Source of the DNA: a virus
Direction: 5' to 3' (one strand)
Length of the DNA stretch: 39,560 nucleotides
Virus record (IMG/VR): IMGVR_UViG_3300049893_002616
Span: 1-39,560 of that record
The notes below the pieces were generated by a model. The model was given only the letters and a program-made list of their open reading frames with translations, did no database searches and was not told the origin of the DNA. Below, piece by piece: positions 6,952-36,090 of this stretch (its first letter is position 1; each line of letters opens with the position of its first letter). Both the position numbers and the translations under genes were made by a program.

Positions 6952-8022
6952 TCAATCCTTAAAATGAGGATGATTTTCAATTTGAGTGGCACTAGTTACT
7001 CGAACAAATTTTGCTCGTTCAGTAAATTCTTTAAGAGTATGCACTCCAGAATAAGACATTGCAGACTTAACGCCACTCACAATATCTATAATAACAGCTT
7101 CTGTAGATCCAGTAGGCAAACATTTAATTGTTTTAGAAACGCCTTCAGAATAAATATCTTCTTGATTGACATCTGCTTTAGATTCTTTAGAAGCCATCCC
7201 ACGATAAGTAATAAGTGGCATTTCAGGAAAAGTACTTCCACTGACTCCTTGTCGGGCATAAGCTAGTCGTTCATTATAATCGATCATGGCCTGATCCCAT
7301 CCAGGAGTACAGTCAGTACCTGCGAGCATTCCGCCAATCATTACAGCTTTAGCTCCAGCTGCTAAAGCTTTTGCTATATCACCAGGAGAGCGAATACCTC
7401 CATCCGCAATGATTGGTCCTGCTTCGCTACAATTTGTAATAGCAGATAACTGTGGAAATCCACATCCAGTTTTAATACGTGTAGTACATACACTTCCTGG
7501 ACCTATTCCTACTTTTACTATAGTAGCTCCATGTTCTAATAAACAACGAGTGGCTTCTGGAGTGCAAACATTACCTGCAATAATAGGATTAGTAAAATTT
7601 CTATCACGAATAAAATCTAATGTATCTATCATATGTTTTGAATCGCCATGGGCTATATCAATACAGATAATATCTGCATTTTGAATTGTCCATTCAATTC
7701 TTTCTTTATCGTTTTGTAGTGCACCAACAGATACTGCGATAGGGAAATTAGGAGGATTGTGCCAATCATTTCGAAGTTGTTTATAAACTTCTAAACTACA
7801 ACGTCGATGATGGATGCCTAGTCCTCCTAAGGCATGCATTTTATTCATCATTTTATCACCACAAATTTTATCCATATTTGCAGCAATAACAGGAACTGTA
7901 AATTTAAACTGATCTAATGTCCATGATAAGTCTGCTTCAGATCGAGACATTAGTGTTGAATATTGAGGTATTAATAGTACATCATCAAAAGTAAGAGCTT
8001 CTGAAAGATTAGTAAACTTCAT
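6952..8022 (-). CDS. GMP reductase / IMP dehydrogenase family protein
   Basis: A 356-residue TIM-barrel enzyme without CBS domains. The start LTFDDVLLIPQYSTLMSR, IIAGNV, and the active-site loop KVGIGPGSVCTTRIKTG (catalytic Cys179) identify the IMPDH/GMPR family. Lack of CBS insertion, length near 350 and the ending (KEFTERAKFVRV) favour GMP reductase, which turns GMP to IMP with NADPH; a CBS-less IMP dehydrogenase is the alternative. In a phage it would adjust purine pools during replication. The start overlaps the phosphatase stop (TAAATGA-like junction). Confidence 0.85.
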   Translation of the reverse strand: MKFTNLSEALTFDDVLLIPQYSTLMSRSEADLSWTLDQFKFTVPVIAANMDKICGDKMMNKMHALGGLGIHHRRCSLEVYKQLRNDWHNPPNFPIAVSVGALQNDKERIEWTIQNADIICIDIAHGDSKHMIDTLDFIRDRNFTNPIIAGNVCTPEATRCLLEHGATIVKVGIGPGSVCTTRIKTGCGFPQLSAITNCSEAGPIIADGGIRSPGDIAKALAAGAKAVMIGGMLAGTDCTPGWDQAMIDYNERLAYARQGVSGSTFPEMPLITYRGMASKESKADVNQEDIYSEGVSKTIKCLPTGSTEAVIIDIVSGVKSAMSYSGVHTLKEFTERAKFVRVTSATQIENHPHFKD

Positions 8023-8534
8023 TTATTTCCACCATAATTTGGTAGCTTATTTACATCTAACACTTCAGTACTTTCTGCATATTGGAGAGCGGCCTGTAAG
8101 TGTTGAGGAAATGGATGTACAAAAGGACGTACAGCTATTACTTTATTATAAGCTTCTAAAAGAGTAAGACCATCAAGTTTCATTAATACAGCAATTACGA
8201 CACTAGCGCTTCTATTGATTCCAGAATAGCAATGTACTAATATCTGGTTATTAGTAGGAGTGGTTTGCAGCAACTCAATTACTTTATCTGCTGCAGCTGC
8301 TAAAAGACCTGGTTGATCTGCGCCATACCCAGGATCATTAAGACGATATTCAAAATCTCCTACAACAGGAGAATCCCAAGCTACAGTAACAATTATAAAT
8401 TTTTGTGCTTCGCTACGGTCTGGATGATCACGATGTTTAGGTTGTGCTGCAAGCTCTAAAATTCTTTCTGCATCTTTCCAAGATCCAAGCCATAAACGTG
8501 GACGAATTAGGCTTTCATTCATTCTTTCGCTCAT
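8019..8534 (-). CDS. dual-specificity phosphatase-like protein
   Basis: A 171-residue protein with the cysteine-phosphatase loop HCYSGINRS (Cys102, Arg108), followed by the usual helix and the LLEAYNKVIAVRP segment of dual-specificity phosphatases. It should hydrolyse phosphate esters on proteins, or possibly on nucleotides or lipids. The likely general acid is in the WDSP segment near residue 54. It overlaps the GMP reductase-like gene by four bases and the upstream gene by four, so it is embedded in one operon. The target is unknown; a host signalling factor is possible. Confidence 0.85.
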   Translation of the reverse strand: MSERMNESLIRPRLWLGSWKDAERILELAAQPKHRDHPDRSEAQKFIIVTVAWDSPVVGDFEYRLNDPGYGADQPGLLAAAADKVIELLQTTPTNNQILVHCYSGINRSASVVIAVLMKLDGLTLLEAYNKVIAVRPFVHPFPQHLQAALQYAESTEVLDVNKLPNYGGNK

Positions 8535-8956
8535 ATAAATAATCCATATCCACCAATATCAATGCATTCAAAACTTAATCTTTCATATTCGAAGCTTGAA
8601 TCACCTTTCTGAACAGTAAAGACATAGATATTGGCAAACTCATCAGTAGAAAGACTAAATGAATCATCGTCATCAAGCTGGCCATGTTCCTTGGCATAGT
8701 TATAATTCCAGCAATTTTCTGGATCCCAACCAGCTTGCTTTAGAATTTCAAATTGTTTTTTAGTGAGACTATTATCTTCATAGTCTGCGCAGCATTGAGT
8801 GATATCTAATTGGATTTTGTTAGTGCCTTTTCTAAAGGCAATTTCAATTTGTTCAGCAGATAGATTAGATCTGATATGAATAGTTGTGTGCTTATCATGA
8901 CCGTCGCCACTAGGATCACCCATTAGTAATTCTACGATATATTTGAGTTCAGTCAT
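8531..8956 (-). CDS. hypothetical protein
   Basis: A 141-residue acidic protein with a helical middle and a DDDDSF stretch. No catalytic motif or membrane segment is seen, and no family is recognised. It overlaps the phosphatase start by four bases (ATGA), which suggests the two are made together. Confidence 0.65.
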   Translation of the reverse strand: MTELKYIVELLMGDPSGDGHDKHTTIHIRSNLSAEQIEIAFRKGTNKIQLDITQCCADYEDNSLTKKQFEILKQAGWDPENCWNYNYAKEHGQLDDDDSFSLSTDEFANIYVFTVQKGDSSFEYERLSFECIDIGGYGLFI

Positions 8957-8957
8957 A

Positions 8958-9674
8958 TTAATGTCCTAAGAACACAACATTCTTTGAAGTTCGGTCTTTC
9001 ATAACACACAATTTACATTTCTCACATGCTGCATTTAATTCAAGTTTTCCATTTGTTACTGGACAAACAAATGAGTTAGCTGGTAATTCAGCTTTATGTT
9101 CCCATGGTCCAAATGCTTGTTTTATTTTATATTTGTCAGCAAACACTTTTGCTGCAATAGTATTAAATGGATCAGTAGAGGCCCATCCACTTACATTTGA
9201 AAGTGCTAATAAATTCTTGAAGTCCAAGTGGAAACTACGGGTATAGAACCAGAATTTAGTGTTTGGTCTAGCTCGCGCAACTTGTGTCCAAACTTCCACT
9301 GCAAATTGGCTATCAAAGTCTCCAGATTCGTGAATGCGAAAAATGGGATCATTATGGGCAATGATATCAAGTAGGTGATCAGCAGCACCGGCAATATCAT
9401 TGCGTGCAGCAAAATAAGACAAAGTAATCCAATTTTTAACCATAACTTTCTGAACATTTTCGAATATATGTCTACCTTTTTGTGCATAACAGTCCTTACA
9501 TGCTTCAGTAGCTCCAGGACAAGTAAAGTCTGGGCCTGCTGGTAAAGAAAAAGCGAGCTTCTTTGAGCCCGCTATTTTCATTGGTGCTGAATTTTGAAAA
9601 CCAAAACCTACAGTATCTACTTGATCAACTATCTGTAAGGCTTTCTTTCGGTATGTGGTATTAAATTTAGTCAT
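8958..9674 (-). CDS. GP88-family cysteine-cluster protein
   Basis: About 238 residues. The N-terminal cluster TCPGATEACKDCYA (Cys52, Cys59, Cys62) and the C-terminal cluster (Cys204, Cys217, Cys220, Cys223) match the phage 'gene product 88' family, which looks like an iron-sulfur, possibly radical-SAM-like, enzyme; its reaction is not established. The ATG at 9674 (MTKFNTTYRK) is preferred over an upstream TTG because it overlaps the stop of the previous gene as ATGACTAA. A second Fe-S candidate lies at 20170-21201. Confidence 0.75.
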   Translation of the reverse strand: MTKFNTTYRKKALQIVDQVDTVGFGFQNSAPMKIAGSKKLAFSLPAGPDFTCPGATEACKDCYAQKGRHIFENVQKVMVKNWITLSYFAARNDIAGAADHLLDIIAHNDPIFRIHESGDFDSQFAVEVWTQVARARPNTKFWFYTRSFHLDFKNLLALSNVSGWASTDPFNTIAAKVFADKYKIKQAFGPWEHKAELPANSFVCPVTNGKLELNAACEKCKLCVMKDRTSKNVVFLGH

Positions 9675-10023
9675 CTTTTGATGTATCTGTTTCAAATCTA
9701 AATTTATTAGGCACTCCTATCATGACATTGAATAGTTGTTTAATTTCACTAGTCGATACATCAACTATTTCAGAAGGTAATTCTTTTGCCGTCATAATCT
9801 GCACCCACTTGGCATGTCCTGCGCGGGCCTCTTCTTCATTCTTATATTCTTCTACGATAATCCATTTTCCAGCATTGTAGTTCTTATGTTTAACAGCAGT
9901 TTCGAGTGGATTCTTTGAATCAGTAACCCATACTGTTGAAACATATAGACCATTTGCTGGATCTTCGTATCGGTTTACTTTACGACTTTCGTAGTTGTCA
10001 GTCATGCTAAAAAAGTTAAACAT
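9667..10023 (-). CDS. hypothetical protein
   Basis: A 118-residue protein. AGGAGA six bases before the ATG supports this start. It has a beta-rich first half (YVSTVWVTDS ... KWIIVEEYKN), an EEEARAGHAKW helix, and no recognised catalytic motif. It lies between thyX and the GP88 gene, overlapping the latter by eight bases. Function unknown. Confidence 0.7.
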   Translation of the reverse strand: MFNFFSMTDNYESRKVNRYEDPANGLYVSTVWVTDSKNPLETAVKHKNYNAGKWIIVEEYKNEEEARAGHAKWVQIMTAKELPSEIVDVSTSEIKQLFNVMIGVPNKFRFETDTSKDD

Positions 10024-10025
10024 AC

Positions 10026-10955
10026 TTATTCTCCTGAAAAAAAATATTCTACTAGTTTGCTTTCTTGCTTTTCTCTCGTAGACATATCTGGATGATTATC
10101 TATTAACCATTGCATTCGAGACTTGAAATTCTGTGGTAATGCATCTACTGGTGGTTCTATTTCTTTTTGTTTATTACCCAGAAGTGTATCTCTAATAATT
10201 TCAAGTTCATATTTACTAATTTTTGGATCCTCAAGAATATAATCCTGAAATGCTTCTAATGCAAATGGAAGGTCACAACATTCACTAATAATTTTATAAA
10301 TGGCGTCGGCGAATACTCGAACTTCTAATTGTGCATGTTTATCAAGGCGTAGTTTAAGAAAATGCATCAAGTTCCAGAGATTAACAGTCCAGTAAAACTC
10401 AGTGTAGAGAGATACTGGTAAAACACAGCGTGCTAGTTCTCTTGCAGTACCATTAGCTAAAAGAACTTCATAGTCATGATATGCATTATTAGTTTTATTT
10501 TCAAAATAAAACTTTGGAGAAGTATTTGGGTAACCTGTTTCAGTGATTACTTCAACTACTTCATCACTGCTGCCTTGTCTATTACTAGTAGATTGTTTTC
10601 TAAGTGGTGAAGGAATATAGAACTCATCTTTCATTACTGAGTAGCGTGCACTTACCTCATTAAAACTACCTGTTCTGTGACGCATCCATTGTCGGGCTAC
10701 AAAGATTGGCAACTTAACGTGAAATTCAAATACTACTTTTTCAAATGGAGTAGTATGTAAATTCTTCATTAAGTATCTAATTAAATGCCTATCAGACTGA
10801 ACAGCTTTAGTTCCTTGTTGATAAGAAACACGAGCAGCATCTACAATACGTTGATCGTTGCCCATCCAATCTACTAAATGTACAAAACCATGATCCAAAC
10901 AATTAACCCATAATGGGTTAGTTGCATTAATATCTACATCTTTAGGGTCTAACAT
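10026..10955 (-). CDS. thyX: flavin-dependent thymidylate synthase
   Basis: About 309 residues. ThyX makes dTMP from dUMP using FAD, NADPH and methylene-tetrahydrofolate. The ThyX motif RHRTGSFNEVSARYS (canonical RHR-x7-S) is at about residues 92-106 and the fold-typical TTPFEKVVFEFHV lies just before. It is longer than most bacterial ThyX proteins, with an extended C-terminus. ATG 10955 has GAGG eight bases upstream and is preferred over a GTG two codons earlier. With dUTPase it forms a dUTP-to-dTMP route. Confidence 0.93.
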   Translation of the reverse strand: MLDPKDVDINATNPLWVNCLDHGFVHLVDWMGNDQRIVDAARVSYQQGTKAVQSDRHLIRYLMKNLHTTPFEKVVFEFHVKLPIFVARQWMRHRTGSFNEVSARYSVMKDEFYIPSPLRKQSTSNRQGSSDEVVEVITETGYPNTSPKFYFENKTNNAYHDYEVLLANGTARELARCVLPVSLYTEFYWTVNLWNLMHFLKLRLDKHAQLEVRVFADAIYKIISECCDLPFALEAFQDYILEDPKISKYELEIIRDTLLGNKQKEIEPPVDALPQNFKSRMQWLIDNHPDMSTREKQESKLVEYFFSGE

Positions 10956-11166: not shown

Positions 11167-11347
11167 CTTTAATTGCTGTTAGTAATAATTTTTCAATACG
11201 ATGTAGTTCGTTAAATGCTTCATTAGTACGTTCGCGGGCTTCTCGCTCAGTGCAGCGTGCTTGTAGTTCAGTCGTATATGCTTTTTCATATGCGGCACTT
11301 GCGCGACTATATGCTTTAATTAATACATCTACTTCTGGATTACTCAT
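11135..11347 (-). CDS. small helical hypothetical protein
   Basis: A 70-residue protein that is almost entirely helical, rich in Ala, Glu and Arg (RCTEREARERTNEAFNELHR), possibly a coiled coil. Its start overlaps the stop of the metallophosphoesterase gene by four bases (ATGA). Function unknown. Confidence 0.6.
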   Translation of the reverse strand: MSNPEVDVLIKAYSRASAAYEKAYTTELQARCTEREARERTNEAFNELHRIEKLLLTAIKDEGSVYKDGP

Positions 11348-12498
11348 TCATTACTCCACTCAAAACAACCTACTTGATTGATAGGCTGTTCTTTACGTAC
11401 TATTAACCAGCCTTGACGAGGAGGGTCCCAAACACCCATGCGTTCTGATAAATCATCATCGCCAGGAAGTGATCCATTCTTCATAACTAATTTACCAAAT
11501 TGAGTTCCGACTTCCCAGTGATGCCAGTGTCCATGACACATGAAGTCAAACTGTTTTGTATATATCCATCCTGCTACTTTAGATTGCATTGCTGGAGTAC
11601 CTAAGTGTTTAGTTCCATGATGGAATAACAGTCCTACTTTATCTTGAACTGGAAAAGTTAAGAATGCATCAAAGTTAACTGTGATACTAATGTCAGGGTC
11701 TAGGCTCATTGCTACTAGATAACCGAGAGTTTGATAAATAATATTATCCCAATTAGTTTTTTCTGATGCAACTTTACTTACTCTACCGTGATTACCAGGA
11801 CAAGTTACAATACGAACTCGTCGACCAAATGTATGTTTAAGTTTTAAGACTAAATTCCAAATAGTATCGACAGCAACTTGTATTTGATCAATAGCTGGCA
11901 TCTCTAAATTATGTGCTTGAGTTTCATAAATATTTTCACCTTCAAGCATATCACCCGCTAACATCACAACAAATTCTTCTAAATCACGTGGAAGTGGAAT
12001 TTCAGATTGAATTTTTTCAGGGATAGTCATTAATCTATCAATAAAAACTTCTTTATTAAAACTTTTTGTATGTTTACCAATGTGAGTATCAGATAATAAA
12101 ATACAAAATGACGATCCAGAAGAAGGTGCATATACACGAGCAGGCACTATATTTGTTGATTGATTAATCAGTCTGTTAACAAACGTATCAAAGTCTTCTC
12201 GATCTTGTGATGAGGCTATAGTTCGTCTGGATCTGCGATCTAATATTGTTCTTAGTGGATTTTCTGCTTCCACTAAAGGCTGTGATACGTCATTTGGAAT
12301 TTCATTGTCTTCATGAATAGCAGTATTTAAAAGAGCTTGAGCATTATTAGCAGCTCGAATTCTACGTACTTGACGTTCAACTGCATCAAAAGTTCTGCTG
12401 GTACCAAATCGTGAGGCATATAGCCTATAGCGTTCATTAGAATTAAAAGTAAGAGTATTTTGCAAAAATAGAATTTGTTCATTTGTCCAAAAAGACAT
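11344..12498 (-). CDS. SANT-like plus calcineurin-type metallophosphoesterase (SbcD/Mre11-like)
   Basis: 384 residues. Residues 1-50 form a Myb/SANT-like helical module (FWTNEQILFLQ ... AVERQVRRIR). Residues 130-360 are a binuclear-metal phosphoesterase: SDTHIG (Asp137, His139), AGDMLEG (Asp183), GNHGR (Asn236, His237), FHHG and CHGHWHH (His322, His324). The order matches SbcD/Mre11-type nucleases. No SbcC-like ATPase partner is seen in the window, so the SANT module may supply DNA targeting instead. It lies downstream of the polymerase and a tiny membrane protein, consistent with replication or repair. The GAGAGG box supports the start. Confidence 0.8.
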   Translation of the reverse strand: MSFWTNEQILFLQNTLTFNSNERYRLYASRFGTSRTFDAVERQVRRIRAANNAQALLNTAIHEDNEIPNDVSQPLVEAENPLRTILDRRSRRTIASSQDREDFDTFVNRLINQSTNIVPARVYAPSSGSSFCILLSDTHIGKHTKSFNKEVFIDRLMTIPEKIQSEIPLPRDLEEFVVMLAGDMLEGENIYETQAHNLEMPAIDQIQVAVDTIWNLVLKLKHTFGRRVRIVTCPGNHGRVSKVASEKTNWDNIIYQTLGYLVAMSLDPDISITVNFDAFLTFPVQDKVGLLFHHGTKHLGTPAMQSKVAGWIYTKQFDFMCHGHWHHWEVGTQFGKLVMKNGSLPGDDDLSERMGVWDPPRQGWLIVRKEQPINQVGCFEWSNE

Positions 12499-12509: not shown

Positions 12510-12671
12510 TTATTTGGTGGTGTTATCGTCTATAAATAGAGTTGCGCCCATAGCAATGGCGATTATGATTAATAGCGGAGCAGCAAAACACAATACTATT
12601 ATCAGCCCACCAATAGCAAAAAGATTATTTCCTAAGCTGCTTGTAGAAGGTTGTTCGGAATGTTCGGTCAT
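12510..12671 (-). CDS. 53-residue single-span membrane protein
   Basis: ATG at 12671 opens a frame of 53 codons to TAA at 12510-12512. The peptide has a short polar N-terminus (MTEHSEQPSTSSLGNN), one hydrophobic span of about 27 residues (IGGLIIVLCFAAPLLIIIAIAMG) and an acidic tail. It overlaps the end of the polymerase gene by 47 bases and fills the space before the phosphoesterase gene. An AGGT box lies nine bases before the start. It is probably an inner-membrane micro-protein; its role is unknown. Confidence 0.65.
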   Translation of the reverse strand: MTEHSEQPSTSSLGNNLFAIGGLIIVLCFAAPLLIIIAIAMGATLFIDDNTTK

Positions 12672-15264
12672 TAGATATACCTATAAGATTTGTTGGTGAA
12701 ATAACAGTATCACTATTAGTAATGAATTTGAGTCTTAATAATTCATTACCAGTTCCTACTTTATCTAATGTTTTCTTTAAATGCAAAATATTTGGTATAT
12801 CTAAAGGAACTTCTGCAGTTATTTCGTGAAAAACAGGAGCACCACTACCAATAAGTTCAAGCCCTTGAACAACTAAAGAAGGAATAGTTATTATTTCTCC
12901 TTCGTCTGTATCAATGTCAGTGTAATCAATTTTAGCCCCTAGTCGTAGTGGAACATTTTTTATTAAAATGTCTGAATGCTTATTATAATTACCGGGGAAA
13001 ATAGCACCTTCAATTGTTCCAGTCATGTCTTCAAATTTTAAAAATGCCATTCGCTTTTTATCTTTAGTTTCTTTTAATTGAATGTCTGAAATAATAACTA
13101 CTAACGTAGCGTAATTAGGACGTTTATTATTTTCACGTAATTCTTGAATTGTCATTGCATTATTACGAGATATATTAGTCAATGGATGACCTGAAATAAA
13201 GTTCCCAGTTAAATCTTTTTCTATACGTAAGATTTCTTGCAAACTCATTTCATTAACAATTATATATTCAGGCTTAAGCGGCAATTCAGGTCGTGTTGGA
13301 ACCTTCAAAGACTTAAGTGGCTTATTTTTATCAGAAAGTTTCTTGGTTCTAATATCTTCTTCGCGCTGATCATAAGCGATTTGTTTTTTCTCGAAGGTCT
13401 CCATCTTATCTTGAAATCTCTTTAACTCATCTTTGTAATTAATTACTTGATCTACTGCCAGAAGCAAAGTAGCTCTATTGTGATGAGTAAAATCAAAGGC
13501 TCCAGCTGAGACAAGTGACTCAAGTTTCTTTTTATTTACTGCACTAAGATCAATTCTCTCGGCAAAATCAAAAAAGTCTTTGAAAGGACCACGAGCATCA
13601 CGCTCATGAATAATCAGATTGGCAGCTTCACCAACGTTTTTAATAGCGTTAAGGCCAAACCTGATTATACCGTTGCGAGGAGTAAATACAAGACCTGATT
13701 CGTTTACGTCAGGAGGAAGAATGGGAATACCCATTCTTTTACACTCTTGTAGATAAATAATTATTTGATCTTGTTTGTCCTCACATGCAAGAGCAGCAGC
13801 CATGAACTCTACTGGATAATGAGTTTTCAACCATGCTGTCTTGTACGTAGTGATAGAATAACCCACTGCGTGAGATTTATTGAAACCGTAATCTGCGAAA
13901 GTTACGATCTCATCCCATAAAGTTTGAGCTAGAGATTCTGAATATCCTTTCTTTTTAAAGCCAGCAAAGAGACCGGCTTTCTGTTCAGCCATCTCTTTCT
14001 CTTTCTTCTTACCTACTGCACGACGTAATAGATCGGCTTCTGCTAGGCTATAGCCTGCCATGTCTCTAGCGATACGGAGTACCTGCTCTTGATAGACTAG
14101 CCAGCCTCCTGTTTCGCCTAGAATGGGCTTCAAGTCAGGATGATGAAAAGTTGGTTCACCTTCTCCTGCTCTCCACTTGAGGTAGACCTGCATCTGATCA
14201 GAGCCTAGTGGGCCTGGACGATACATAGCATTAATTGCTGCAAGATCTTCAATACAAGTAGGACGAACCTTTATTGTTAGATCACGAATACCTGATGAAG
14301 CTTCTAGTTGAAAAATACCAAGATTATTACCTTTGCGTAAATTGGCATAAACTTTATCATCATCTAATAAGAGATTTGTTAAATCAATATTTGTCTTATA
14401 GTTTTCTTTTATAAACTTTAAGGTTAATGCCATTTGACTTAATGTTTTAAGGCCTAATATATCAAATTTAATTAGTCCTACATCTTCAACATTAGTCATA
14501 TCCCATTGAGTAACTACTTCGTTATTCTTACCTTTAGCAAGTGGTATTACGGTATTAAGTGGCTGACTAGAAATCACTATGCCAGAAGCATGAATACCAA
14601 ATGAAGCGATACGGCCTTCAATTTGTTCTGCCCAGCGTAAAATTGTACCTTCATCTGTATCTGAATTACGAAGATCCGCTAAATCAGGAATAGATGCAAA
14701 TGCATCTTTAAGCTTTACTTCTTTTCCATGAATAGGTTTGGGATATAATTTACATAAGATATTTGCCGTATTAATAGGTAAACCTAATGTTCGTGCAATG
14801 CCTTTAATTGAATTCTTGGCTTTAAAGGTACCAAAAGTACCAATTTGAGCAACTTTATCAGCACCATATTTATTGCGGATATATTCAATTACTTCATCTC
14901 GTCTATCTTTTTGAAAATCAATATCAAAGTCAGGCATGCTTATACGAGCTGGATTTAAAAATCGTTCAAAATAAAGATCATATTTAATAGGGTCTACATT
15001 AGTAATACCTAAAGCCCAAGCAGCTAATGAGCCTGCTCCAGAACCTCTACCATCGCCTACTAGAATATCTTGCGCCTTAGCCCAATTAATGAAATCTTGT
15101 ACTACAAGAAAATAACCAGGATAACCCATTTTCTTGATTACTTCGATCTCAAAGGAGAGTCTTTTAAAATACTCTTCATGATTCACTTCGTAAGGGACTT
15201 TCTTTAATCTTTCATTTAATCCTTTACGACATTTGAAGGCAAAATACTCTTCGAGTTGATTCAT
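12625..15264 (-). CDS. dnaE: DNA polymerase III alpha, C-terminal part (palm, fingers, OB)
   Basis: 879 residues covering everything of a bacterial DnaE except the PHP domain. The catalytic aspartates are in MPDFDIDF (Asp112, Asp114) and IKFDILGLKTL (Asp268). GRGSGAGSL near 72-80 and the fingers segments are intact, and an OB fold is seen near the C-terminus (LVVIISDIQLKETKDKKRM). It starts exactly in the linker that joins the PHP and polymerase domains in DnaE (EEYFAFKCRKGLNERL). The PHP part is a separate gene at 15880-16833, with two small genes between. It is the likely phage replicase subunit. Its ATG overlaps the stop of the preceding gene (ATGA). Confidence 0.93.
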   Translation of the reverse strand: MNQLEEYFAFKCRKGLNERLKKVPYEVNHEEYFKRLSFEIEVIKKMGYPGYFLVVQDFINWAKAQDILVGDGRGSGAGSLAAWALGITNVDPIKYDLYFERFLNPARISMPDFDIDFQKDRRDEVIEYIRNKYGADKVAQIGTFGTFKAKNSIKGIARTLGLPINTANILCKLYPKPIHGKEVKLKDAFASIPDLADLRNSDTDEGTILRWAEQIEGRIASFGIHASGIVISSQPLNTVIPLAKGKNNEVVTQWDMTNVEDVGLIKFDILGLKTLSQMALTLKFIKENYKTNIDLTNLLLDDDKVYANLRKGNNLGIFQLEASSGIRDLTIKVRPTCIEDLAAINAMYRPGPLGSDQMQVYLKWRAGEGEPTFHHPDLKPILGETGGWLVYQEQVLRIARDMAGYSLAEADLLRRAVGKKKEKEMAEQKAGLFAGFKKKGYSESLAQTLWDEIVTFADYGFNKSHAVGYSITTYKTAWLKTHYPVEFMAAALACEDKQDQIIIYLQECKRMGIPILPPDVNESGLVFTPRNGIIRFGLNAIKNVGEAANLIIHERDARGPFKDFFDFAERIDLSAVNKKKLESLVSAGAFDFTHHNRATLLLAVDQVINYKDELKRFQDKMETFEKKQIAYDQREEDIRTKKLSDKNKPLKSLKVPTRPELPLKPEYIIVNEMSLQEILRIEKDLTGNFISGHPLTNISRNNAMTIQELRENNKRPNYATLVVIISDIQLKETKDKKRMAFLKFEDMTGTIEGAIFPGNYNKHSDILIKNVPLRLGAKIDYTDIDTDEGEIITIPSLVVQGLELIGSGAPVFHEITAEVPLDIPNILHLKKTLDKVGTGNELLRLKFITNSDTVISPTNLIGISNDRTFRTTFYKQLRK

Positions 15265-15620
15265 CGATGATCCATTTCTAATACTTGTGCATCAATAGCG
15301 ATATTAACAACAGTCTTTTTTCCACTACGTTGAAGTGTTTCTGATTTGTCAGTAACAATCCTTACTTCAGCACATGTAAACGTATAAGTATTACGTTTAC
15401 CATTTGCATCAGTCCAAGAAACTAAAATAACTGGTGCATTATTTCTTTCAGCTTCTTTGCTTTTTTCAATTACTGGTAATGTAAGACGTTCAGATTGTTC
15501 TTTAGTTGTAACTTTTACTGTTTCTACTATTTCAGTAGAACCATTAGAAACAGTAGCAACTGTTTTATCAATCATGTCAGACGTACTTGATGGTGTAATC
15601 TTTTTCTTTCCTCTAGGCAT
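15261..15620 (-). CDS. hypothetical protein between the two polymerase genes
   Basis: A 119-residue protein with a basic N-terminus (MPRGKKKITP), a low-complexity Thr/Val/Glu middle and a beta-rich C-terminal half (VILVSWTDANGKRNTYTFTC). No family is recognised. It overlaps the polymerase start by four bases, so it is probably translated with it. Its place between the halves of the alpha subunit makes a replisome role plausible but unproven. Confidence 0.65.
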   Translation of the reverse strand: MPRGKKKITPSSTSDMIDKTVATVSNGSTEIVETVKVTTKEQSERLTLPVIEKSKEAERNNAPVILVSWTDANGKRNTYTFTCAEVRIVTDKSETLQRSGKKTVVNIAIDAQVLEMDHR

Positions 15621-15628
15621 AGATTACC

Positions 15629-15883
15629 TCATTTAATATTTACAAGTTTAGAATCGCCATGTTCTTCTAATATCTCATTTGCTGCTTCAGTTAACTCTTC
15701 GCGCTGCATGTCTTCTAATTCTTGAATTAGTTGTAACTTTTCTTGTTCTAAAGTTTTAATAACTTCATTATAGCTAGCTACTACAGCTTTTTTATCAGAC
15801 TTTTGAAGTTCAATAGCTTTAACACGATTTACAATTTGTGATTGTAAACTTGCGATCTGTAATTCTTTATTTACTATACTCAC
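15629..15883 (-). CDS. small coiled-coil protein between the two polymerase genes
   Basis: An 84-residue protein, nearly all heptad-like helix (VIKTLEQEKLQLIQELEDM), probably dimeric. The start is GTG at 15883, overlapping the TGA stop of the PHP gene (GTGA), with AAGGAG just upstream inside that gene; translation is almost certainly coupled. It might help hold the two polymerase parts together, which is inference only. Confidence 0.65.
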   Translation of the reverse strand: MSIVNKELQIASLQSQIVNRVKAIELQKSDKKAVVASYNEVIKTLEQEKLQLIQELEDMQREELTEAANEILEEHGDSKLVNIK

Positions 15884-16833
15884 GTACGCTCCTTCAAGAA
15901 CTCGTTATAATCAGGCTCAGTTTCAATATTGAATATTGGTGTCTTATATTTCCCTAATTCAATTTCTATTTGACATAAATTACCAATCTCACAAGCATTC
16001 CAGAATGCTTCTTCACACTTATATTTACGTGCTGCGTCTAACATTTGTTGTGGACTGCGAATAAAAAACCAAGGTCCATATTTCATTTCGCCAGCAGAGA
16101 TATATTCTTGATATGTTTTTTTCAACTGCATAGCCATTAACATTGAATGTAATTCTGATGATTCTACTGTAGTGTAATGAGCATCAGAAGTGATTACATT
16201 AAACAATCCAAGTCGTTTAGCCATGTCAATAACAATTGTGTTATAAGCAAGTTGTTGTCCTGCTACATCATCATTATCTTGAATTTCAAGATAATATTTA
16301 GTTCCAAAAATAGTCTTATAAAAATTAGCTGCTTGTTCCATTGCTTCTATATTTTTATAGATCTTGGTTTCTGGATCCCATTCTCCTACACGACTTACTT
16401 CATTGCCCAGACAGGCACTAGTTGCAATAATGCCTTCTACGCTTTGTATATTAAGATTACTTTTACTAATGCGTGGTTTGCTATAAAAATTATTCAATTG
16501 TGCACGTGACACAAGATCTAATAAATTACGATAGCCTATTTCATTATGAGCAATCATAACTAAATGATAGTTATCTCTAGTACGATCTTCTTTAATTATA
16601 TTATCTGGATCATTCGTGATATATGCTTCTACACCTAAAATTGGCTTTATGTTTTCTTTCTTACAGGCTTTATAGAAATTAAGCGCACCCATCATGGTGC
16701 CATGATCTGTAAGTGCGATTTGTTTCATGCCAAGTTCTTTAGTCCGTTTAATAAACATATCTAATTGGTTTTCACCATCTAGAATTGAATATACAGAATG
16801 GGTGTGTAGGTGAGTAAAATCATGAAGATCCAT
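15880..16833 (-). CDS. DNA polymerase III alpha, PHP domain as separate protein
   Basis: 317 residues equal to the N-terminal PHP domain of DnaE. The metal-binding motifs look complete: HLHTHSVYSILDG (His8, His10, His12), LTDHG, GVEAY, and TSDAHY. This HxHxH form is kept in DnaE proteins with a metal-dependent, possibly proofreading PHP site, whereas the E. coli site is degenerate. The protein ends (EFLKERT) in the linker where the polymerase part begins, so the cut is at a domain border rather than a random frameshift. It lies 25 bases after recA and leads a coupled four-gene run. Confidence 0.92.
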   Translation of the reverse strand: MDLHDFTHLHTHSVYSILDGENQLDMFIKRTKELGMKQIALTDHGTMMGALNFYKACKKENIKPILGVEAYITNDPDNIIKEDRTRDNYHLVMIAHNEIGYRNLLDLVSRAQLNNFYSKPRISKSNLNIQSVEGIIATSACLGNEVSRVGEWDPETKIYKNIEAMEQAANFYKTIFGTKYYLEIQDNDDVAGQQLAYNTIVIDMAKRLGLFNVITSDAHYTTVESSELHSMLMAMQLKKTYQEYISAGEMKYGPWFFIRSPQQMLDAARKYKCEEAFWNACEIGNLCQIEIELGKYKTPIFNIETEPDYNEFLKERT

Positions 16834-16857: not shown

Positions 16858-17862
16858 TCATGTTGGTGTAGCATTAGTTGATTTAATGTTCTTTAATTGC
16901 GCCATAATATGATTAGCTACATCTTCATGTTCTGTTAGATAATTAGCAACATTTTTTTCGCCTTGTCCTAGGCGTTCATTGGCATAACTATACCATGCGC
17001 CACTTTTTTCAATAATATCTTGCTTTGTAGCTAAACGAACAAGATCAAGAGTTTTATTAACACCTTTGCCAAATTCAATTTCAAATTCAACTAATCGATA
17101 AGGAGGAGCAGTTTTATTCTTAATAACTTTTAATTCAGTTTCATTAGCAACTATAGTTTCACCATTTTTAATTTGTCCTCGTCGTCTAACATCTATGCGA
17201 ATAGATGCATAAAACTTTAGAGCATTACCACCTGAAGTCGTTTCTGGAGAACCAAACATTACACCAATTTTGTAACGAATTTGATTGAGCCAAATAATAG
17301 TTACATTATTTTTAGCACATACACCGGTTAGTTTACGTAAAGCTTGAGACATTAAACGAGCTGCCAAACCTGGTAATTGAGCACCCATATCTCCGTCTAA
17401 TTCAGCTTTAGGAACTAAAGCAGCAACAGAATCAATTACAATTAATTGTACTAAATTAGAATTAGATAATTCTTCTACAATATCGAGAGCTTCTTCAGCA
17501 GTATCTGGTTGATTAATAATCAACTCGTCAATATTGACACCTAATGCTTTTGCATAATTTAGATCCAAAGCGTGTTCTGCATCAATAAAGGCACAGGCTT
17601 GTCCGGCTTTTTGCGCTTCAGCAATTGCTGTAAGTGTTAGTGTGGTTTTACCTGAACTTTCTGGTCCAAAGATTTCAACCATTCGACCTTTAGGATATCC
17701 GCCTCCTGTGGCCCAATCTACTGAAGGAATACCAGTAGAAAAACGTGCAATATCGGATACTTCATTACCGGATAAAAAGCTAATGGTACCATTACCATAT
17801 TTTTTGTTAACAGATGATTTGAGTAATTCAATAGCTTTCTGTTTTTCGACGTCCATAGGCAT
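16858..17862 (-). CDS. recA: RecA recombinase
   Basis: About 334 residues, a full bacterial-type RecA rather than a T4 UvsX type. Walker A GPESSGKT is near residues 66-73, Walker [11 protein letters not shown] follows, and MAW-type and L2 segments ([28 protein letters not shown] split over residues 190-220) are present. It forms filaments on ssDNA and drives strand exchange and phage recombination-dependent replication. The start at 17862 (MPMDVEKQ) is chosen because AAGGAT lies suitably upstream. It overlaps the dNMP kinase gene by about 35 bases. Confidence 0.95.
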
Positions 17863-18445
17863 GGGTTTGATCCTTATTAGTAACAATTTGATTAAGTAAA
17901 CGATCGACTTTTTGATATAGCGCAGTCATCGTGTTGTCATTAATTAACACTTCATCCCAATCAGTAAAATTATCTAATGAAGTTTCACTTACATGAGATG
18001 AAAATTCAGTAATTGGTGTGTTGCGATTTACTTTCCACAACAATCCTCCAGGCATTGATCGGATTGCTTCTGCTTCATTAGGAAAACGCACATCTGGTAT
18101 TACAATTTTCAATTGTTGAGTTGGTGTTTTAGCTATTTGATTTTCGATTTTATACTGAAGAGATTTGATCCAAACATTTTGATCAATAACATTACGAAAT
18201 GCTTCAGTGCCGGCTAATTGCAAAACTTCACGAGGAGTTTTATTCCAACGTGGATCTAATACTTCTTTTTGATCACCATATAACTGAGCATTAGTAAAAT
18301 GAAAGATAATTCTACATGCTTCTTTCAATGGATCTGCAAAAGATATTCGCGTGAAACCGTATGCGTCAACTAAGCGATTAGCAACAGTATCTTTGCCAAC
18401 ACCCTTTTTATAGCCAACACCAATAATTATGGGTACATGATTCAT
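17828..18445 (-). CDS. deoxynucleoside monophosphate kinase
   Basis: 205 residues. The P-loop [10 protein letters not shown] (residues 11-20), FADPLKEA, the [14 protein letters not shown] segment and [12 protein letters not shown] match the phage dNMP kinase family (T4 gp1-like), which phosphorylates dNMPs to dNDPs for replication. Length is close to the family norm. It is four bases overlapped with the upstream deoxyribosyltransferase-like gene, making a nucleotide-salvage pair. Confidence 0.88.
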
Positions 18446-31251: not shown

Positions 31252-31325
31252 AGGGTACTGCAAGACTTTCACTTGCTAAATGCTGGGTTGCAACCAGTTG
31301 CTTCGTGTCTTTTAGCTTAGTACCC
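31252..31325 (-). tRNA. tRNA-Cys(GCA)-like gene, non-canonical loops
   Basis: Minus-strand cloverleaf of 74 bases. The acceptor GGGTACT/AGTACCC pairs perfectly, with discriminator T73 as in tRNA-Cys. The anticodon arm (CTGG/CCAG plus a weak outer pair) has loop TTGCAAC, anticodon GCA. The T arm GCAAG/CTTGC has loop TGAAAGT instead of TTC-purine-A; the D loop lacks GG; no CCA is encoded. It ends one base from the CCA of the next tRNA gene. It is read as a divergent tRNA-Cys. Confidence 0.55.
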
Positions 31326-31326
31326 A

Positions 31327-31401
31327 TGGAGCCGATTATTAGAATCGAACTAATTTCTGAGCTTTACAAGAGCCCTGCATCACCATTTATGCTTAATCGG
31401 C
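31327..31401 (-). tRNA. tRNA-Thr(TGT)
   Basis: 75 bases, minus strand. The acceptor GCCGATT/AATCGGC, D arm GCAT/ATGC with GG in its loop, anticodon loop CTTGTAA (anticodon TGT), T arm ATTAG/CTAAT with loop TTCGATT, and encoded CCA are all canonical except A at position 8. It reads ACA/ACN threonine codons. Confidence 0.9.
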
Positions 31402-31500
31402 ACCTCTATATTGTATAGTAATAAATATACAAGATTAGAGATATTATTTAAATCAATTAATTATTGATGTTAATTTGTATGATGTAATATCATAATAAAA
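31402..31500 (-). other. 99-base AT-rich leader upstream of the Cys/Thr tRNA pair
   Basis: No gene is seen. A TACAAT box (31410-31415) lies nine bases before the tRNA-Thr 5' end and is part of an inverted repeat TTGTATA/TATACAA with an eight-base spacer. No matching -35 hexamer was found, so this is only a possible promoter or processing signal. Confidence 0.3.
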
Positions 31501-33729
31501 TTATGTAAGTCCATGCGAAGCGTCAATTAATCGAATATAAGTAGTAAGATCTGAGGTGAACCTGTCATGATTAGGTATTCTAAAACTTACTTCTGACCAT
31601 CGCAATAAAGGATATCTATTGCTTAACTCATTTATTTCATTTTCTATTTTTAATAAACTTTGTGATCGTTGTTGATCAAATGAAAGATTATCAAGATTTA
31701 ATTGTCTACACAAGTTTGTTAACTCTATGTATGTGTTGTACGTATTATCATGATTATTTCTGCTACGTGCGTTCATTAAACGAGTATGAAATTGTCGCAA
31801 TGGCGAATCAGCATGCAAATGACCTGATTCAATTAGAGCAATAATTTGCACTATATTATTTCTAGCATGTTCAGTTTGCAAAGCTATATCATCAAAAAAA
31901 TCAGAATTATTTTGCAATATATTCTCTAAATTAGTTCGCATTAGAGAATGGAGATTCTGCCAATTTTCTTCAATACGCTCGGCCGCATTAATTTTTACAC
32001 CAATAATATTTGTTGATATATCAGTATCAGTCAATCGTTCATAAACATTAAGACTAGATCTAAAATGTCGATTCAATTTTGCATCACTATTAGTGTGAAA
32101 TTTTACTTTAAAATGATCTAAATATACATAATAATATTGTTGATTCGAATCAATTGTTGCTTGATCCCAGTATTCAGATTCATTAAAAGGATGAAAAGGA
32201 TGATTATCTAGATTAGCTAACTGAAATATTTTTCGAGAATGTTTGATATTATGTGGTGCTCCTGTACCTCCTCGTTCAATTACAAGAGGTGTTTGAGCAG
32301 CAAGACTATTGAAATAACTTATAGGAATAGTAGATTCAGTAGCGATGTTTTCAATTGAAGTATGAGCAGTAAGCTTAAAAAGATAAATCTTTTTTACATC
32401 TGGATTGTCTAATAAAAATTTTCGAATACGTAAGATAGGTTTATCATCAGTATCTTGTATGAATAATTTATTTTCATCATTAACTTCAATACGTGTTCCT
32501 ATAGATATATATTTGCTAGAAGGTATTTCAGTATAACTTAATCGTTCAAATAAGCGTGTAGTAAATGCAGGCATATTAGATGCAAACTCTTCACCACCTA
32601 CTCGGCGAAGTTCTTCGAAATAAATACCTGGAATAACAAAACGATAATCAGTAATTGGTTGATCGTTCCAGACAAGCGCGGTTGATATAATTGAATTTAG
32701 TGCACGAAGCTCGCCATATGCAATAAGTTTATAGTATTGTTTAGCTTCTACGATATCTCTTGCATTGCCAATACGAGCATTAAGCTCATTGTCAATTTCT
32801 TGAATAGCTATATCAAAGATTTCTTGAAATGCATGTAAGGTTTTCTTATCGTATTCAAGAGCCTCACGTGAGGCAGCAATAGACATTTTGCCTACTGGTA
32901 CATAAAAATTTATAGGGCATTCCATTAATTTAGCATATTTATACCACTTAGGATGATTTCTAAAATTATCACTAAGAACAGTTAAGTTAATTGGATAAGC
33001 AACATTACCCATAATTACTACGTTTTCTTCACGATGATAAGTAGTAGAATTAACAACTGATGCACGAAGGCCCCAGCTATCTTTACGTAATATATAGTCT
33101 GGAGCTTGAATATTGTCACCTAAATTTAACACTTCAGGTATAACTTGAAAATGTTGATACAACTTTATCGCTGTATCACAGAAATTACCAATATCATTAA
33201 GTTGCACAGCAATAGATATTTTAATACCAGAAGGTTCAATAGTGGGTTCATGTTCAATCTGAGAAATAGCACCTAATCCAGTTTCATCTACATAAGCTTC
33301 ATATACAACTTTATATCCATTATAGTAGCTAGTAATCGTAAAACTATCAGCATAAGAAAAAGCTGCTTTGGAACCAAAACCAAGTTGACCATTTAATTCA
33401 GTACTACCACGTTTAGTAGATGCACCATACATGGTATAAATATTACGAATATCATCTTCAGATAAGCCACTTCCAAAATCACGAATAGTTAAAAATCGAT
33501 TTTGAATAGTAGGCAGCGTTACTTGAATAGGTCTAGTTCGTTGTCCAGATTCAATATGGGCATCACAGGCATTAGTAGAATATTCACGTAATACAGCAAG
33601 AATCTTATTACTGTAAATCTTATTTCTCATTACATTGAAGATATGTTTCATATCTTCTTTGTTTCTAATACCAAAATGACTTTCTTGAAAATCAGCAGAA
33701 TTATATTCTTGCATATTATTGTTATTCAT
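31501..33729 (-). CDS. rIIA: rIIA-like GHKL ATPase protein
   Basis: 742 residues. The N-terminal GHKL (Hsp90/histidine-kinase-type) ATP site has the N box REYSTNACDAH (Asn53), DFGSGLS (Asp84) and the lid GQLGFGSKAAFSYADSF (114-130), the same order as T4 rIIA (725 residues). A conserved PVGKMSIAASREAL block further on also matches. rIIA proteins govern lysis inhibition and phage exclusion, though the chemistry is unknown. No rIIB is recognised next to it; the next gene downstream is a tRNA pair and the one upstream is Pth2. Confidence 0.87.
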   Translation of the reverse strand: MNNNNMQEYNSADFQESHFGIRNKEDMKHIFNVMRNKIYSNKILAVLREYSTNACDAHIESGQRTRPIQVTLPTIQNRFLTIRDFGSGLSEDDIRNIYTMYGASTKRGSTELNGQLGFGSKAAFSYADSFTITSYYNGYKVVYEAYVDETGLGAISQIEHEPTIEPSGIKISIAVQLNDIGNFCDTAIKLYQHFQVIPEVLNLGDNIQAPDYILRKDSWGLRASVVNSTTYHREENVVIMGNVAYPINLTVLSDNFRNHPKWYKYAKLMECPINFYVPVGKMSIAASREALEYDKKTLHAFQEIFDIAIQEIDNELNARIGNARDIVEAKQYYKLIAYGELRALNSIISTALVWNDQPITDYRFVIPGIYFEELRRVGGEEFASNMPAFTTRLFERLSYTEIPSSKYISIGTRIEVNDENKLFIQDTDDKPILRIRKFLLDNPDVKKIYLFKLTAHTSIENIATESTIPISYFNSLAAQTPLVIERGGTGAPHNIKHSRKIFQLANLDNHPFHPFNESEYWDQATIDSNQQYYYVYLDHFKVKFHTNSDAKLNRHFRSSLNVYERLTDTDISTNIIGVKINAAERIEENWQNLHSLMRTNLENILQNNSDFFDDIALQTEHARNNIVQIIALIESGHLHADSPLRQFHTRLMNARSRNNHDNTYNTYIELTNLCRQLNLDNLSFDQQRSQSLLKIENEINELSNRYPLLRWSEVSFRIPNHDRFTSDLTTYIRLIDASHGLT

Positions 33730-33737
33730 TTTATTCC

Positions 33738-34109
33738 TTATAATAACTTTAAATGACCAGTGATTTGATCAACTTTACTTTCTAGTCCTGGTCCAATAGC
33801 ACAACATGTTTTAGTAGGCACACCATTAAACTCTGTGTGGCCTGCGTCAGTAATTAGTTCAACGGGAAGACCTTCTTCTTGGGCTTTTTTAAAGACCTCA
33901 AGCAGCTCTTGTTCTGAATCAACACTGACAGAGATCTTTTTTTGCCCTTGATTCATCCATGTAACTACCTTGTCCAACCAGTGTGTATCCGAACCAGCAG
34001 TTGCATTAAATACAATAGTGGCGCTAGCATGAGCGCCTTGGGCAATCATTTTACCTTTACGCATGTTCAAATCTTTACGTACAACAATAACTTGTTTTAA
34101 CTTAGTCAT
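33738..34109 (-). CDS. peptidyl-tRNA hydrolase, Pth2 type
   Basis: 123 residues. The Pth2 fold motifs are KQVIVVRKDLNMRKGKMIAQ then GAHAS (residues 5-29), an EEL helix, and ITDAGHTEF (Asp88) with AIGPG. This is the archaeal/eukaryal family, unrelated to bacterial Pth. It would release peptides from stalled peptidyl-tRNA. Between rIIA and a tRNA cluster, it may protect translation or recycle phage tRNAs. Confidence 0.85.
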   Translation of the reverse strand: MTKLKQVIVVRKDLNMRKGKMIAQGAHASATIVFNATAGSDTHWLDKVVTWMNQGQKKISVSVDSEQELLEVFKKAQEEGLPVELITDAGHTEFNGVPTKTCCAIGPGLESKVDQITGHLKLL

Positions 34110-34172
34110 AACTCAAATCTATCCAAGGCGATTTAGTTATATTCACCTTATTTTTGTCTTGTTTAAGCAAAT

Positions 34173-34247
34173 TGGAGCCTTCACTGAGAATCGAACTCAG
34201 CTTATCGTCATACCAAAACGATGTAATAACCACTATACGATGAAGGC
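34173..34247 (-). tRNA. tRNA-Thr(GGT)
   Basis: 75 bases. Acceptor GCCTTCA/TGAAGGC, anticodon loop TTGGTAT (anticodon GGT) on the stem TCGTT/GACGA, T arm CTGAG/CTCAG with loop TTCGATT, CCA encoded. It reads ACC/ACU. It lies 63 bases after the pth2 start and closes the second tRNA cluster. Confidence 0.85.
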
Positions 34248-34248
34248 G

Positions 34249-34322
34249 TGGTGCGGGATGCGAGAATCGAACTCGCACATCTAGCTTGGAAGGCTAGCAG
34301 GCTACCACTACATCAATCCCGC
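34249..34322 (-). tRNA. tRNA-Gly(TCC)
   Basis: 74 bases. Acceptor GCGGGAT/ATCCCGC, anticodon stem CTAGC/GCTAG with loop CTTCCAA (TCC), T arm GCGAG/CTCGC with loop TTCGATT, CCA encoded. All arms pair well. One base separates it from tRNA-Thr(GGT). Confidence 0.92.
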
Positions 34323-34328
34323 ATAAAC

Positions 34329-34402
34329 TGGTTGAGAAAGGTGGACTTGCACCATCTTATTAATATTCAGAAAATTACATTTTACGATTAAATTATTTCT
34401 CA
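34329..34402 (-). tRNA. tRNA-Gln(CTG)-like gene, non-canonical loops
   Basis: 74 bases. Acceptor TGAGAAA/TTTCTCA pairs fully (T1-A72, as in Gln tRNAs), with CCA encoded. Anticodon loop TTCTGAA gives CTG; one mismatch closes the stem. The D loop (AATCGTA) lacks GG, and the T loop is TGCAAGT rather than TTC-type, with one T-stem mismatch. It is likely a divergent but possibly functional tRNA-Gln. Confidence 0.6.
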
Positions 34403-34403
34403 A

Positions 34404-34479
34404 TGGAAGGGATAGATTAGAATTGAACTATCATTAACTGATTCAAAGTCAGTTGTCTTAACCATTAGACCATATCCCT
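34404..34479 (-). tRNA. tRNA-Gln(TTG)
   Basis: 76 bases. Acceptor AGGGATA/TATCCCT, D arm GTCT/AGAC with a GG-containing loop, anticodon stem ACTGA/TCAGT with loop CTTTGAA (TTG), T loop TTCAATT, CCA encoded. The T stem needs one bulged base. It reads CAA/CAG. Confidence 0.85.
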
Positions 34480-34482
34480 ATA

Positions 34483-34559
34483 TGGCTGCAGCGGCAGGAT
34501 TCGAACCTACAAAAATGCCAAGTTAACAGCTTGGTGGCTTACCATTCACCCACACTGCA
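34483..34559 (-). tRNA. tRNA-Asn(GTT)
   Basis: 77 bases. Acceptor TGCAGTG/CGCTGCA with T1-A72 and G73 as in bacterial Asn tRNA, anticodon stem CCAAG/CTTGG with loop CTGTTAA (GTT), T arm GTAGG/CCTGC with loop TTCGAAT, CCA encoded. It is first in the second cluster, directly after a promoter. Confidence 0.92.
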
Positions 34560-34568
34560 AGAGTAAGT

Positions 34569-34598
34569 ATTATAAATTAATATTAACTTAATTGTCAA
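34569..34598 (-). promoter_or_regulatory. sigma-70-like promoter for the second tRNA cluster
   Basis: On the minus strand a perfect TTGACA (34593-34598) and a perfect TATAAT (34569-34574) are 18 bases apart. Transcription would start a few bases before the tRNA-Asn 5' end at 34559. This is the best consensus promoter seen in the window. Confidence 0.8.
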
Positions 34599-34621
34599 TT
34601 TTATTTTGTTTATTTAAAACT

Positions 34622-35056
34622 TTAATCAAAGTAATCAAACCAAGCTAAAGGATCTGATTTATATGAAGGTAAACCTACTTGAATACCATTTACATAGAAG
34701 TTTTGATGCTTCAGTTTACCGTTTTTATAAAATACTTCACGAGCAGGACCGTCTTGTGGATCTCGATGATAAGTATTGTTTACCCAATACTCTCGGACGT
34801 GTATTTGTCCATCCTCATAAAAACACTCAACAGCAGGACCCTCTTCTGGGTTTCGATGGTAGTTACCATTTTGTAAAAATCCTCGAAAAGCTATTTGGCC
34901 ATTTGAATAGAATTCTTCAAATGCAGGACCCTCTTTTGAATCTCTATGGTACTCATGATTTATTCGATATGATCTGCGCCATAGTCTTCCGTTTGTATGA
35001 AATACTTCCTTTTTTCCGCCTGGATAAAACACTTCTTTCATATTAAACCTGTTCAT
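34622..35056 (-). CDS. MORN-like repeat protein
   Basis: 144 residues built of about four copies of a 25-30-residue MORN_2/YwqK-like unit. Each has the pattern Y-HRDP-x-x-GPA-x-x-x-FY-x-NG-x-I/L; examples are HRDSKEGPAFEEFYSNGQI and HRDPQDGPAREVFYKNGKL. The ending PLAWFDYF is shared with the next gene upstream, so they are tandem paralogues. An internal ATG at 35041 has an AGG box and is an alternative start. Function unknown; MORN repeats often mediate lipid or protein contacts. Confidence 0.75.
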   Translation of the reverse strand: MNRFNMKEVFYPGGKKEVFHTNGRLWRRSYRINHEYHRDSKEGPAFEEFYSNGQIAFRGFLQNGNYHRNPEEGPAVECFYEDGQIHVREYWVNNTYHRDPQDGPAREVFYKNGKLKHQNFYVNGIQVGLPSYKSDPLAWFDYFD

Positions 35057-35064
35057 TTAAAACT

Positions 35065-35313
35065 TCAATTAAAATAATCGAACCAAGCTAAAGAATCTGG
35101 TTTTGGTTTTAATTCTGGTAGATCTTGTTCTATGTCGTTTAACAACATATTATTTACCCAAAATGCTTTATTACGTATCGTTCCATCTGTATTAAACCAT
35201 ATACGTGCAGGACCGTCTGCAGGATCTCGATGACATATATTATCTAAAAAATAAGTTCTAGATTCTAGTCGTCCACTTGGATAATGAAAATCCTGAATTC
35301 GAGCTATAGGCAT
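35065..35313 (-). CDS. short MORN-like repeat paralogue
   Basis: 82 residues with two MORN_2-like units (ICHRDPADGPARIWFNTDGT) and the closing SLAWFDYF shared with the larger paralogue eight bases downstream. Its ATG overlaps the stop of the sugar transferase gene by one base, so they are made together. It looks like a tandem duplication with loss of two repeats. Confidence 0.7.
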   Translation of the reverse strand: MPIARIQDFHYPSGRLESRTYFLDNICHRDPADGPARIWFNTDGTIRNKAFWVNNMLLNDIEQDLPELKPKPDSLAWFDYFN

Positions 35314-35954: not shown

Positions 35955-36061
35955 TATTCTGTCCTTATCTAAAATAATTAATTAATATCTATTAAACACA
36001 AATGCTAAAAACTAAGTTTAGGCATTGTCTTTATTGTGTTGAAATTATGTCGATAAATAAA

Positions 36062-36083: not shown

Positions 36084-36090
36084 GTCAAGC

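Follow-up and report, generated by a model that had tools for sequence, protein, structure and literature searches.

How can a phage replicate its DNA with a DnaE-type DNA polymerase III alpha subunit whose PHP domain and catalytic part are encoded by different genes? This question is raised by a locus in IMG/VR virus record IMGVR_UViG_3300049893_002616, a 39,560-base stretch from an uncultured virus of bacteria, probably a fragment, which was analyzed over its full length and is called the window below. On its minus strand, a gene for a 317-residue stand-alone PHP domain (15880..16833; hereafter PHP) and a gene for an 879-residue protein with the palm, thumb, fingers, HHH and OB-fold of DnaE (12625..15264; hereafter POL) are separated by two small genes encoding an 84-residue coiled-coil-like protein (15629..15883) and a 119-residue protein (15261..15620). 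All four open reading frames (ORFs) named in an initial annotation of the window are indeed found at these positions. We consider it likely that the locus encodes a natural two-subunit C-family replicase, in which PHP would assemble in trans with POL, probably as a proofreading exonuclease.

Both parts are recognizably pieces of the same enzyme. PHP matches the Pfam PHP domain (E=9.6e-45) and the PHP domain of Thermus DnaE (9.5e-43), and Pfam identifies DNA_pol3_alpha (3.1e-91), finger (1.9e-50), HHH_6 (1.2e-28) and OB-fold (9.6e-05) domains in POL, with no PHP domain found in that scan. POL aligns with DnaE in the PDB from residue 28 onward (1e-167), and phmmer adds a second stretch, residues 676-805, matching Thermus DnaE. 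Its OB-fold (residues 720-767) follows the HHH domain, which is the order of DnaE and not of PolC. On PHROG 405, the family of full-length phage DNA polymerase III, PHP matches positions 43-342 and POL positions 336-1053. The proposal of the initial annotation that a DnaE has been split at the PHP/palm border is thus borne out by the Pfam domains and by the coverage of this family by the two parts.

The predicted folds agree. An AlphaFold2 (AF2) model of PHP alone, built from the alignment of the clade described below, has a predicted local distance difference test score (pLDDT) of 89.8 and a predicted template modeling score (pTM) of 0.85. Its top Foldseek matches are PHP domains of DnaE (E about 1e-23), among them 4gx8/4gx9, which are E. 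coli PHP-epsilon chimeras containing PHP without its polymerase; RNase AM and other free PHP enzymes follow at about 1e-7. The model of POL (pLDDT 83) shows the fold of the rest of DnaE (Foldseek match to DnaE, 8.5e-57). The palm/thumb and fingers of POL are those of Pol III alpha and carry the polymerase aspartates: D112 and D114 (MPDFDIDF; 14923..14931), which are invariant in alignment A3, and D268 (KFDILG; 14461-14463) as the third; we take all three to be catalytic by homology to E. coli DnaE. Judged from their sequences, PHP and POL together make up one complete DnaE-type DNA polymerase III alpha subunit. An origin of PHP in another polymerase family, which the initial annotation had put forward as a possible refutation, is ruled out by sequence, fold and tree. 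Between the HHH domain and the OB-fold, POL contains a long conserved helix (residues 597-639; window 13348-13476) that occupies the place of the beta-clamp motif in E. coli DnaE; a beta-clamp gene was not found in 22 related records. As a separate observation, PHROG 11165, a polymerase family of 782 amino acids, starts at about residue 6 of POL and could hold further POLs devoid of PHP.

The split is not confined to the window. Queries and alignments of both PHP and POL were used to scan IMG/VR, all loci were then classified mechanically, and repeats of the same contig were removed before lineages were counted. At 333 loci PHP and palm are in one frame (fused). The main split set consists of 17 lineages on 20 contigs, designated by locus numbers (the window, L007, L002/L003, L006, L010, L011, L012, L017, L299, L087/L094, L088, L089, L090/L098, L095, L096, L257 and L258), three of them recovered twice from different samples; L008 and L339 show POL only, at contig ends. 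All split cases have both genes on one strand, with PHP upstream of POL, so that the split and its order are kept in related phages, a point that the initial annotation had proposed to check. Between the PHP stop and POL, the arrangement varies from an overlap of at most 34 nucleotides (nt; L002, L010, L011, L012, L088) to a spacing of about 2.9 kb (L257). Among the 13 lineages compared, the parts are 40-65% identical to PHP and POL of the window.

Phylogeny points to a common history. A POL tree of 80 rows that covered 14 of the split lineages places them on one branch with L008 (SH-aLRT 100%), and the PHP tree likewise unites the 14 lineages (99%). An enlarged POL tree places all 17 lineages, L008 and L339 on one branch (SH-aLRT 99%), and the bacterial DnaE proteins branch outside this split clade. 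Within the clade the distances of PHP and POL correlate (Mantel r 0.75, with 0 of 5000 permutations as high), and the conservation of PHP at a given divergence of POL is about that seen in fused enzymes with intact metal ligands. Two further split cases lie at the edge of this clade or outside it: L355 is split with a clean overlap of 17 nt (approximately unbiased test, p 0.086 against joining the main clade in a reduced set), and L305/L306, in which POL is divided into several more pieces, clusters with the PHP-fused L023 and probably represents a separate case. Fission at the PHP border thus took place a single time in the history of the main clade, and perhaps a further time in other phages. 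L023 itself (7125-10531 of a 188 kb phage contig) illustrates another fission point of phage DnaE, as its PHP and palm are fused and its OB-containing C-terminus is a separate ORF of 239 amino acids.

Since the window is a metagenomic contig and the PHP N-termini of two relatives are interrupted, one might suspect an assembly artefact or the decay of a frameshifted fused gene. Against this, whole genes lie between the parts, and frames and active sites are kept at about 40% identity throughout 17 lineages, three of which were recovered twice. The recurrence in these lineages, some found twice in different samples, shows that the split is no local frameshift; together with the intervening genes it rules out a sequencing error, and we regard artefact or decay as next to negligible. 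The window enzyme is a split variant of the DnaE-type C-family polymerase and not a standard member: PHP, palm, thumb and fingers do not share a single polypeptide, PHP being separate in all 17 lineages.

The position of the break is informative on how the two genes arose. We measured the linker from the conserved F/Y at the end of PHP (F301 in the window) to the conserved G at the start of POL (G15). In 140 fused loci its median length is 18 residues, and almost all of the values are 17-19. The PHP tail of the split clade extends 16-29 residues beyond F301 with the pattern D-Y-x-x-F-L-x-W, of which D308 and F312 are invariant, and POL begins with a head of about 14 residues with the pattern x-L-x-x-Y-F-x-F-K-C-x-K-G-L. 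As F312 of PHP and Y7 of POL both align with the same linker tyrosine of the fused enzymes, the linker helix is present twice. According to the clade alignment, the first copy in the window is the C-terminal tail of PHP (residues 302-317, NIETEPDYNEFLKERT; 15883..15930) and the second is the N-terminus of POL (residues 1-16, MNQLEEYFAFKCRKGL; 15217..15264), where the AF2 model shows a helix at residues 2-20. The break had been described initially as precise, with both genes meeting in the same linker. The shared linker holds, but the cut is not clean, since PHP closes with the linker helix and POL opens with it too. We propose that an ancestral phage dnaE broke in the PHP-palm linker and that each half would have retained its own copy of this helix.

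The doubled helix also bears on whether the two genes might still yield one protein via frameshifting, stop read-through or trans-splicing. In L002, L010, L011, L012, L088 and L355 the two overlap, each in a different frame; inteins are common in these genes, and the PHP piece of Staphylococcus phage S-CoN_Ph14 ends in a Hint domain. Yet joining would double the linker helix, since each part has its own copy, one to several whole genes separate the parts in the window, in L007 and in most other lineages, and the window PHP and POL show neither a Hint domain nor an intron; a single final product is therefore very improbable. Frameshift fusion in the overlapping lineages is rejected because the spacing from F301 to G15 in L011 would be about 80 nt versus about 54 nt in fused genes, and loci of the window type exclude it altogether. 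The Rfam matches in the window are all tRNAs, and no match lies close to the split in the window or in L007, L017, L089 and L257, which rules out a group I or II intron. A split intein at the PHP/POL break is ruled out as well, since Pfam gave no Hint/intein match on the PHP, POL, 84-residue and 119-residue proteins of the window. Elsewhere in the clade, Pfam intein/Hint domains occur within POL of L002 (8965-12774) and L258 (2627-5521) and within PHP of L096 (6648-8768), and putative intein-like insertions are seen in POL of L017 (7989-11402) and L088 (8954-13687) and in RecA of L006 (2553-4118).

The minus-strand order in the window is RecA, PHP, the 84-residue gene, the 119-residue gene, POL and a metallophosphoesterase, and no promoter-like site on the same strand was found between the PHP and POL genes. 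Three of the four genes had been reported as joined by GTGA/ATGA overlaps. We confirm a GTGA overlap between PHP and the 84-residue gene (15880-15883) and an ATGA overlap between the 119-residue gene and POL (15261-15264), but a gap of 8 nt separates the 84- and 119-residue genes, so that two of the three junctions overlap. Co-transcription, combined with the overlapping start and stop codons present in several lineages, should keep PHP and POL in proportion. The suggestion that the 84-residue coiled coil bridges the two parts is not supported. This protein is 47% identical to an 88-residue ORF and the 119-residue protein 38% identical to a 125-residue ORF, both of L007, the closest relative and the only lineage in which homologues were seen, which speaks against either protein as the bridge. 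The 84-residue protein has no Pfam or PHROG match, and no match to the 119-residue protein was found in cultured phages. Other lineages have nothing between PHP and POL, a gene similar to GP88 of the window (L006, L087), a phosphoesterase-like ORF (L090, L095) or other unrelated ORFs. As the intervening genes differ by lineage and are often absent, the bridge idea is not general.

What, then, would a free PHP contribute? Active PHP domains of DnaE are characterized by the metal-site motif HHDHEH[C/H]DH (PMC12926913). Based on the alignments and the ligand table, the nine ligands of the window PHP are H10, H12 and D19 (16777..16806; invariant in alignment A4), H44 (TDHG; 16702..16704), E69 (GVEAY; 16627..16629), H90 (16564..16566), C141 (SACLG; 16411..16413), and D217 and H219 (DAHY; 16177..16185). 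PHP of the window hence carries the complete nine-ligand motif of an active DnaE1-type PHP exonuclease, and a site of this kind serves M. tuberculosis DnaE1 as a proofreading exonuclease with three zinc ions (trinuclear; PMC5636811). The corresponding positions of E. coli DnaE read RHDFDHGDR. The initial annotation had described the metal ligands as intact, unlike those of E. coli; all nine are present, but the first pair is H10/H12 of HLHTH and not H8, which is no ligand because dozens of fused homologues vary at this position and keep the other ligands. HHDHEHCDH is complete in 16 of 16 split PHPs read through the region, including L355 and L305; L006 and L011, which are interrupted, and L299, which is cut by the contig end, fall outside this count. 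The full set is also present in 200 of the 256 fused loci with all positions aligned.

These features are compatible with the following mechanism. PHP most likely folds by itself, as suggested by its model and by the crystallised chimeras 4gx8/4gx9, and would dock in trans on POL at its usual place beside thumb and palm. By analogy to the M. tuberculosis and Thermus enzymes, it would there supply a zinc-dependent 3'-5' proofreading activity that excises mispaired primer ends. In E. coli Pol III, damage to PHP leads to a loss of stability and activity (PMC3666897); POL without a PHP of its own should therefore need PHP in trans, and a POL that ignores PHP is unlikely.

Could PHP nevertheless have left the replicase and act as a free nuclease or phosphatase, with POL replicating without it? 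YcdX, RNase AM and PolX-derived exonucleases are free PHP proteins with such activities (PMC9226535), and many lineages have other genes between PHP and POL. However, the sequence and fold of PHP are nearest to DnaE PHP domains, far ahead of the free PHP enzymes, PHP always adjoins POL and diverges along with it, and the linker helix is kept in its tail. These observations make a departure from the replicase improbable.

A less remote, but still unlikely, alternative is that PHP is a structural scaffold on POL with an idle or minor metal site, and that proofreading is performed by a DnaQ-like protein of phage or host or by the SbcD/Mre11-like metallophosphoesterase. The E. coli precedent supports such a scaffold, as its PHP is inactive but still required for stability (PMC3666897), and most of the clade has a predicted phosphoesterase gene downstream of POL. 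Moreover, DnaQ-like genes with an RNase_T match occur next to the split genes in some lineages: in L257 (7527-8126) a DnaQ-like exonuclease of 199 amino acids lies between PHP and POL (RNase_T 6.3e-10, PHROG 192), and such genes stand just upstream of PHP in L006 (4051-4641; PHROG 192) and in lineage L087/L094 (7103-7591 in L087). On the other hand, a pure scaffold would have no need for nine ligands that are invariant over deep divergence, E. coli showing their erosion once DnaQ takes over, and no RNase_T match was found in other split-clade contigs of up to 126 kb. The initial annotation had seen no DnaQ-like gene. The first DnaQ search, which covered 21 records, indeed found no RNase_T match in the window record or in 16 of the others, and one further match, in the L104 record, lies far from its polymerase. 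As the contigs are fragments, this absence is weak evidence.

We thus favor a PHP that assembles with POL and probably proofreads, although several points weigh against it. The split itself is uninformative on activity because the ligands are intact in most fused phage enzymes as well, and the DnaQ-like genes of three lineages mean that proofreading there may not depend on PHP alone. Besides, every clade member is a metagenomic contig, with no isolate among them, and the PHP N-terminus is interrupted in L006 and L011, which could reflect decay or assembly error. Where a DnaQ-like gene is present, PHP may also serve as a docking platform for DnaQ, as in E. coli. More tentatively, we raise the possibility that this phage clade has made its replicase PHP a free proofreading subunit acting in trans, a zinc-based counterpart of DnaQ/epsilon that possibly comes and goes or shares the fork with DnaQ.

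Splits of polymerase III at other places are known. With bacterial DnaE1 and phage DnaE (PHROG 405), the window enzyme shares the domains and their order, the intact polymerase aspartates and the active-type PHP ligands of Thermus DnaE and M. tuberculosis DnaE1, but it differs by its two genes and its doubled linker helix. In jumbo phages of group 2.2, a minimal Pol III alpha is encoded as separate proteins that are thought to reassemble; there, the cut lies inside the catalytic part, the genes are distant, PHP is lacking and a family B polymerase is present too (PMC7824862). None of the first three features applies to the window, which likewise encodes a phage Pol III alpha as separate proteins, but is cut at the PHP border with POL whole and PHP nearby. 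Cyanobacterial DnaE has an intein-type break (PMC3919608) and, as in S-CoN_Ph14, a C-family polymerase comes in pieces; there, intein ends splice the pieces, and none were found in the window. A division between polymerase and nuclease polypeptides is also known from Pol III alpha with epsilon (DnaQ) and from archaeal PolD with the Mre11-like DP1, but the candidate nuclease of the window is PHP, whose zinc site has no relationship to DnaQ or Mre11.

Among cultured phages, a junction query combining the end of PHP and the start of POL hit 1277 records at 1278 places, and 60 of the 60 matches listed are single uninterrupted pieces. Annotations or domain scans revealed no PHP-border split in phages S-CoN_Ph14, 6ec, Ro157lw, PB1, ECML-117, 2S-4 and AB434P2. 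Some of these polymerases have peculiarities of their own. In S-CoN_Ph14 (L165, 1690-6649) the C-family polymerase spans at least four ORFs. One of these pieces contains PHP and has a Hint domain at its end, and the next is a LAGLIDADG piece; this arrangement likely represents a split intein inside PHP. Phage 6ec (L411) is annotated with a single gene of 4968 bases, and in Escherichia phage Ro157lw the C-terminal part of the polymerase is annotated as a second gene. We found no report of a PHP-border break in the literature consulted; an earlier mention in doi 10.1093/nar/gkw322 is possible.

A single polypeptide that comprises PHP, palm, thumb and fingers has been described as common to all C-family polymerases (PMC3666897), a statement that the split clade contradicts. 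The role of PHP has also been hard to study, as PHP damage harms the polymerase too (PMC3666897). In a natural two-protein version, PHP can be added, omitted, mutated or swapped, which makes its structural role separable from proofreading, and the lineages with and without DnaQ offer a ready comparison of PHP-only versus PHP-plus-DnaQ proofreading.

The flanking genes are in part conserved along with the split. The RecA gene (16858..17886, minus strand; Pfam RecA 1.3e-112) lies directly upstream of PHP, and the order RecA-PHP-POL is common to most of the clade. Downstream of POL, the metallophosphoesterase gene (11344..12498, minus strand; PHROG 284, 7.5e-43) encodes a member of the SbcD/Mre11-like exonuclease family. 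Such a gene follows POL in most of the clade, is also found near the polymerases of L023 and L104, and is a possible further candidate for a proofreading or recombination nuclease. Elsewhere on the minus strand, the window encodes eleven tRNA genes (31252-37396), an rIIA-like gene (31501-33729) and an ATP-dependent DNA ligase (38178-39083). It also contains a bacterial sugar transferase gene (35313-35954; Pfam Bac_transf 2.9e-64), an unusual cargo for a phage.

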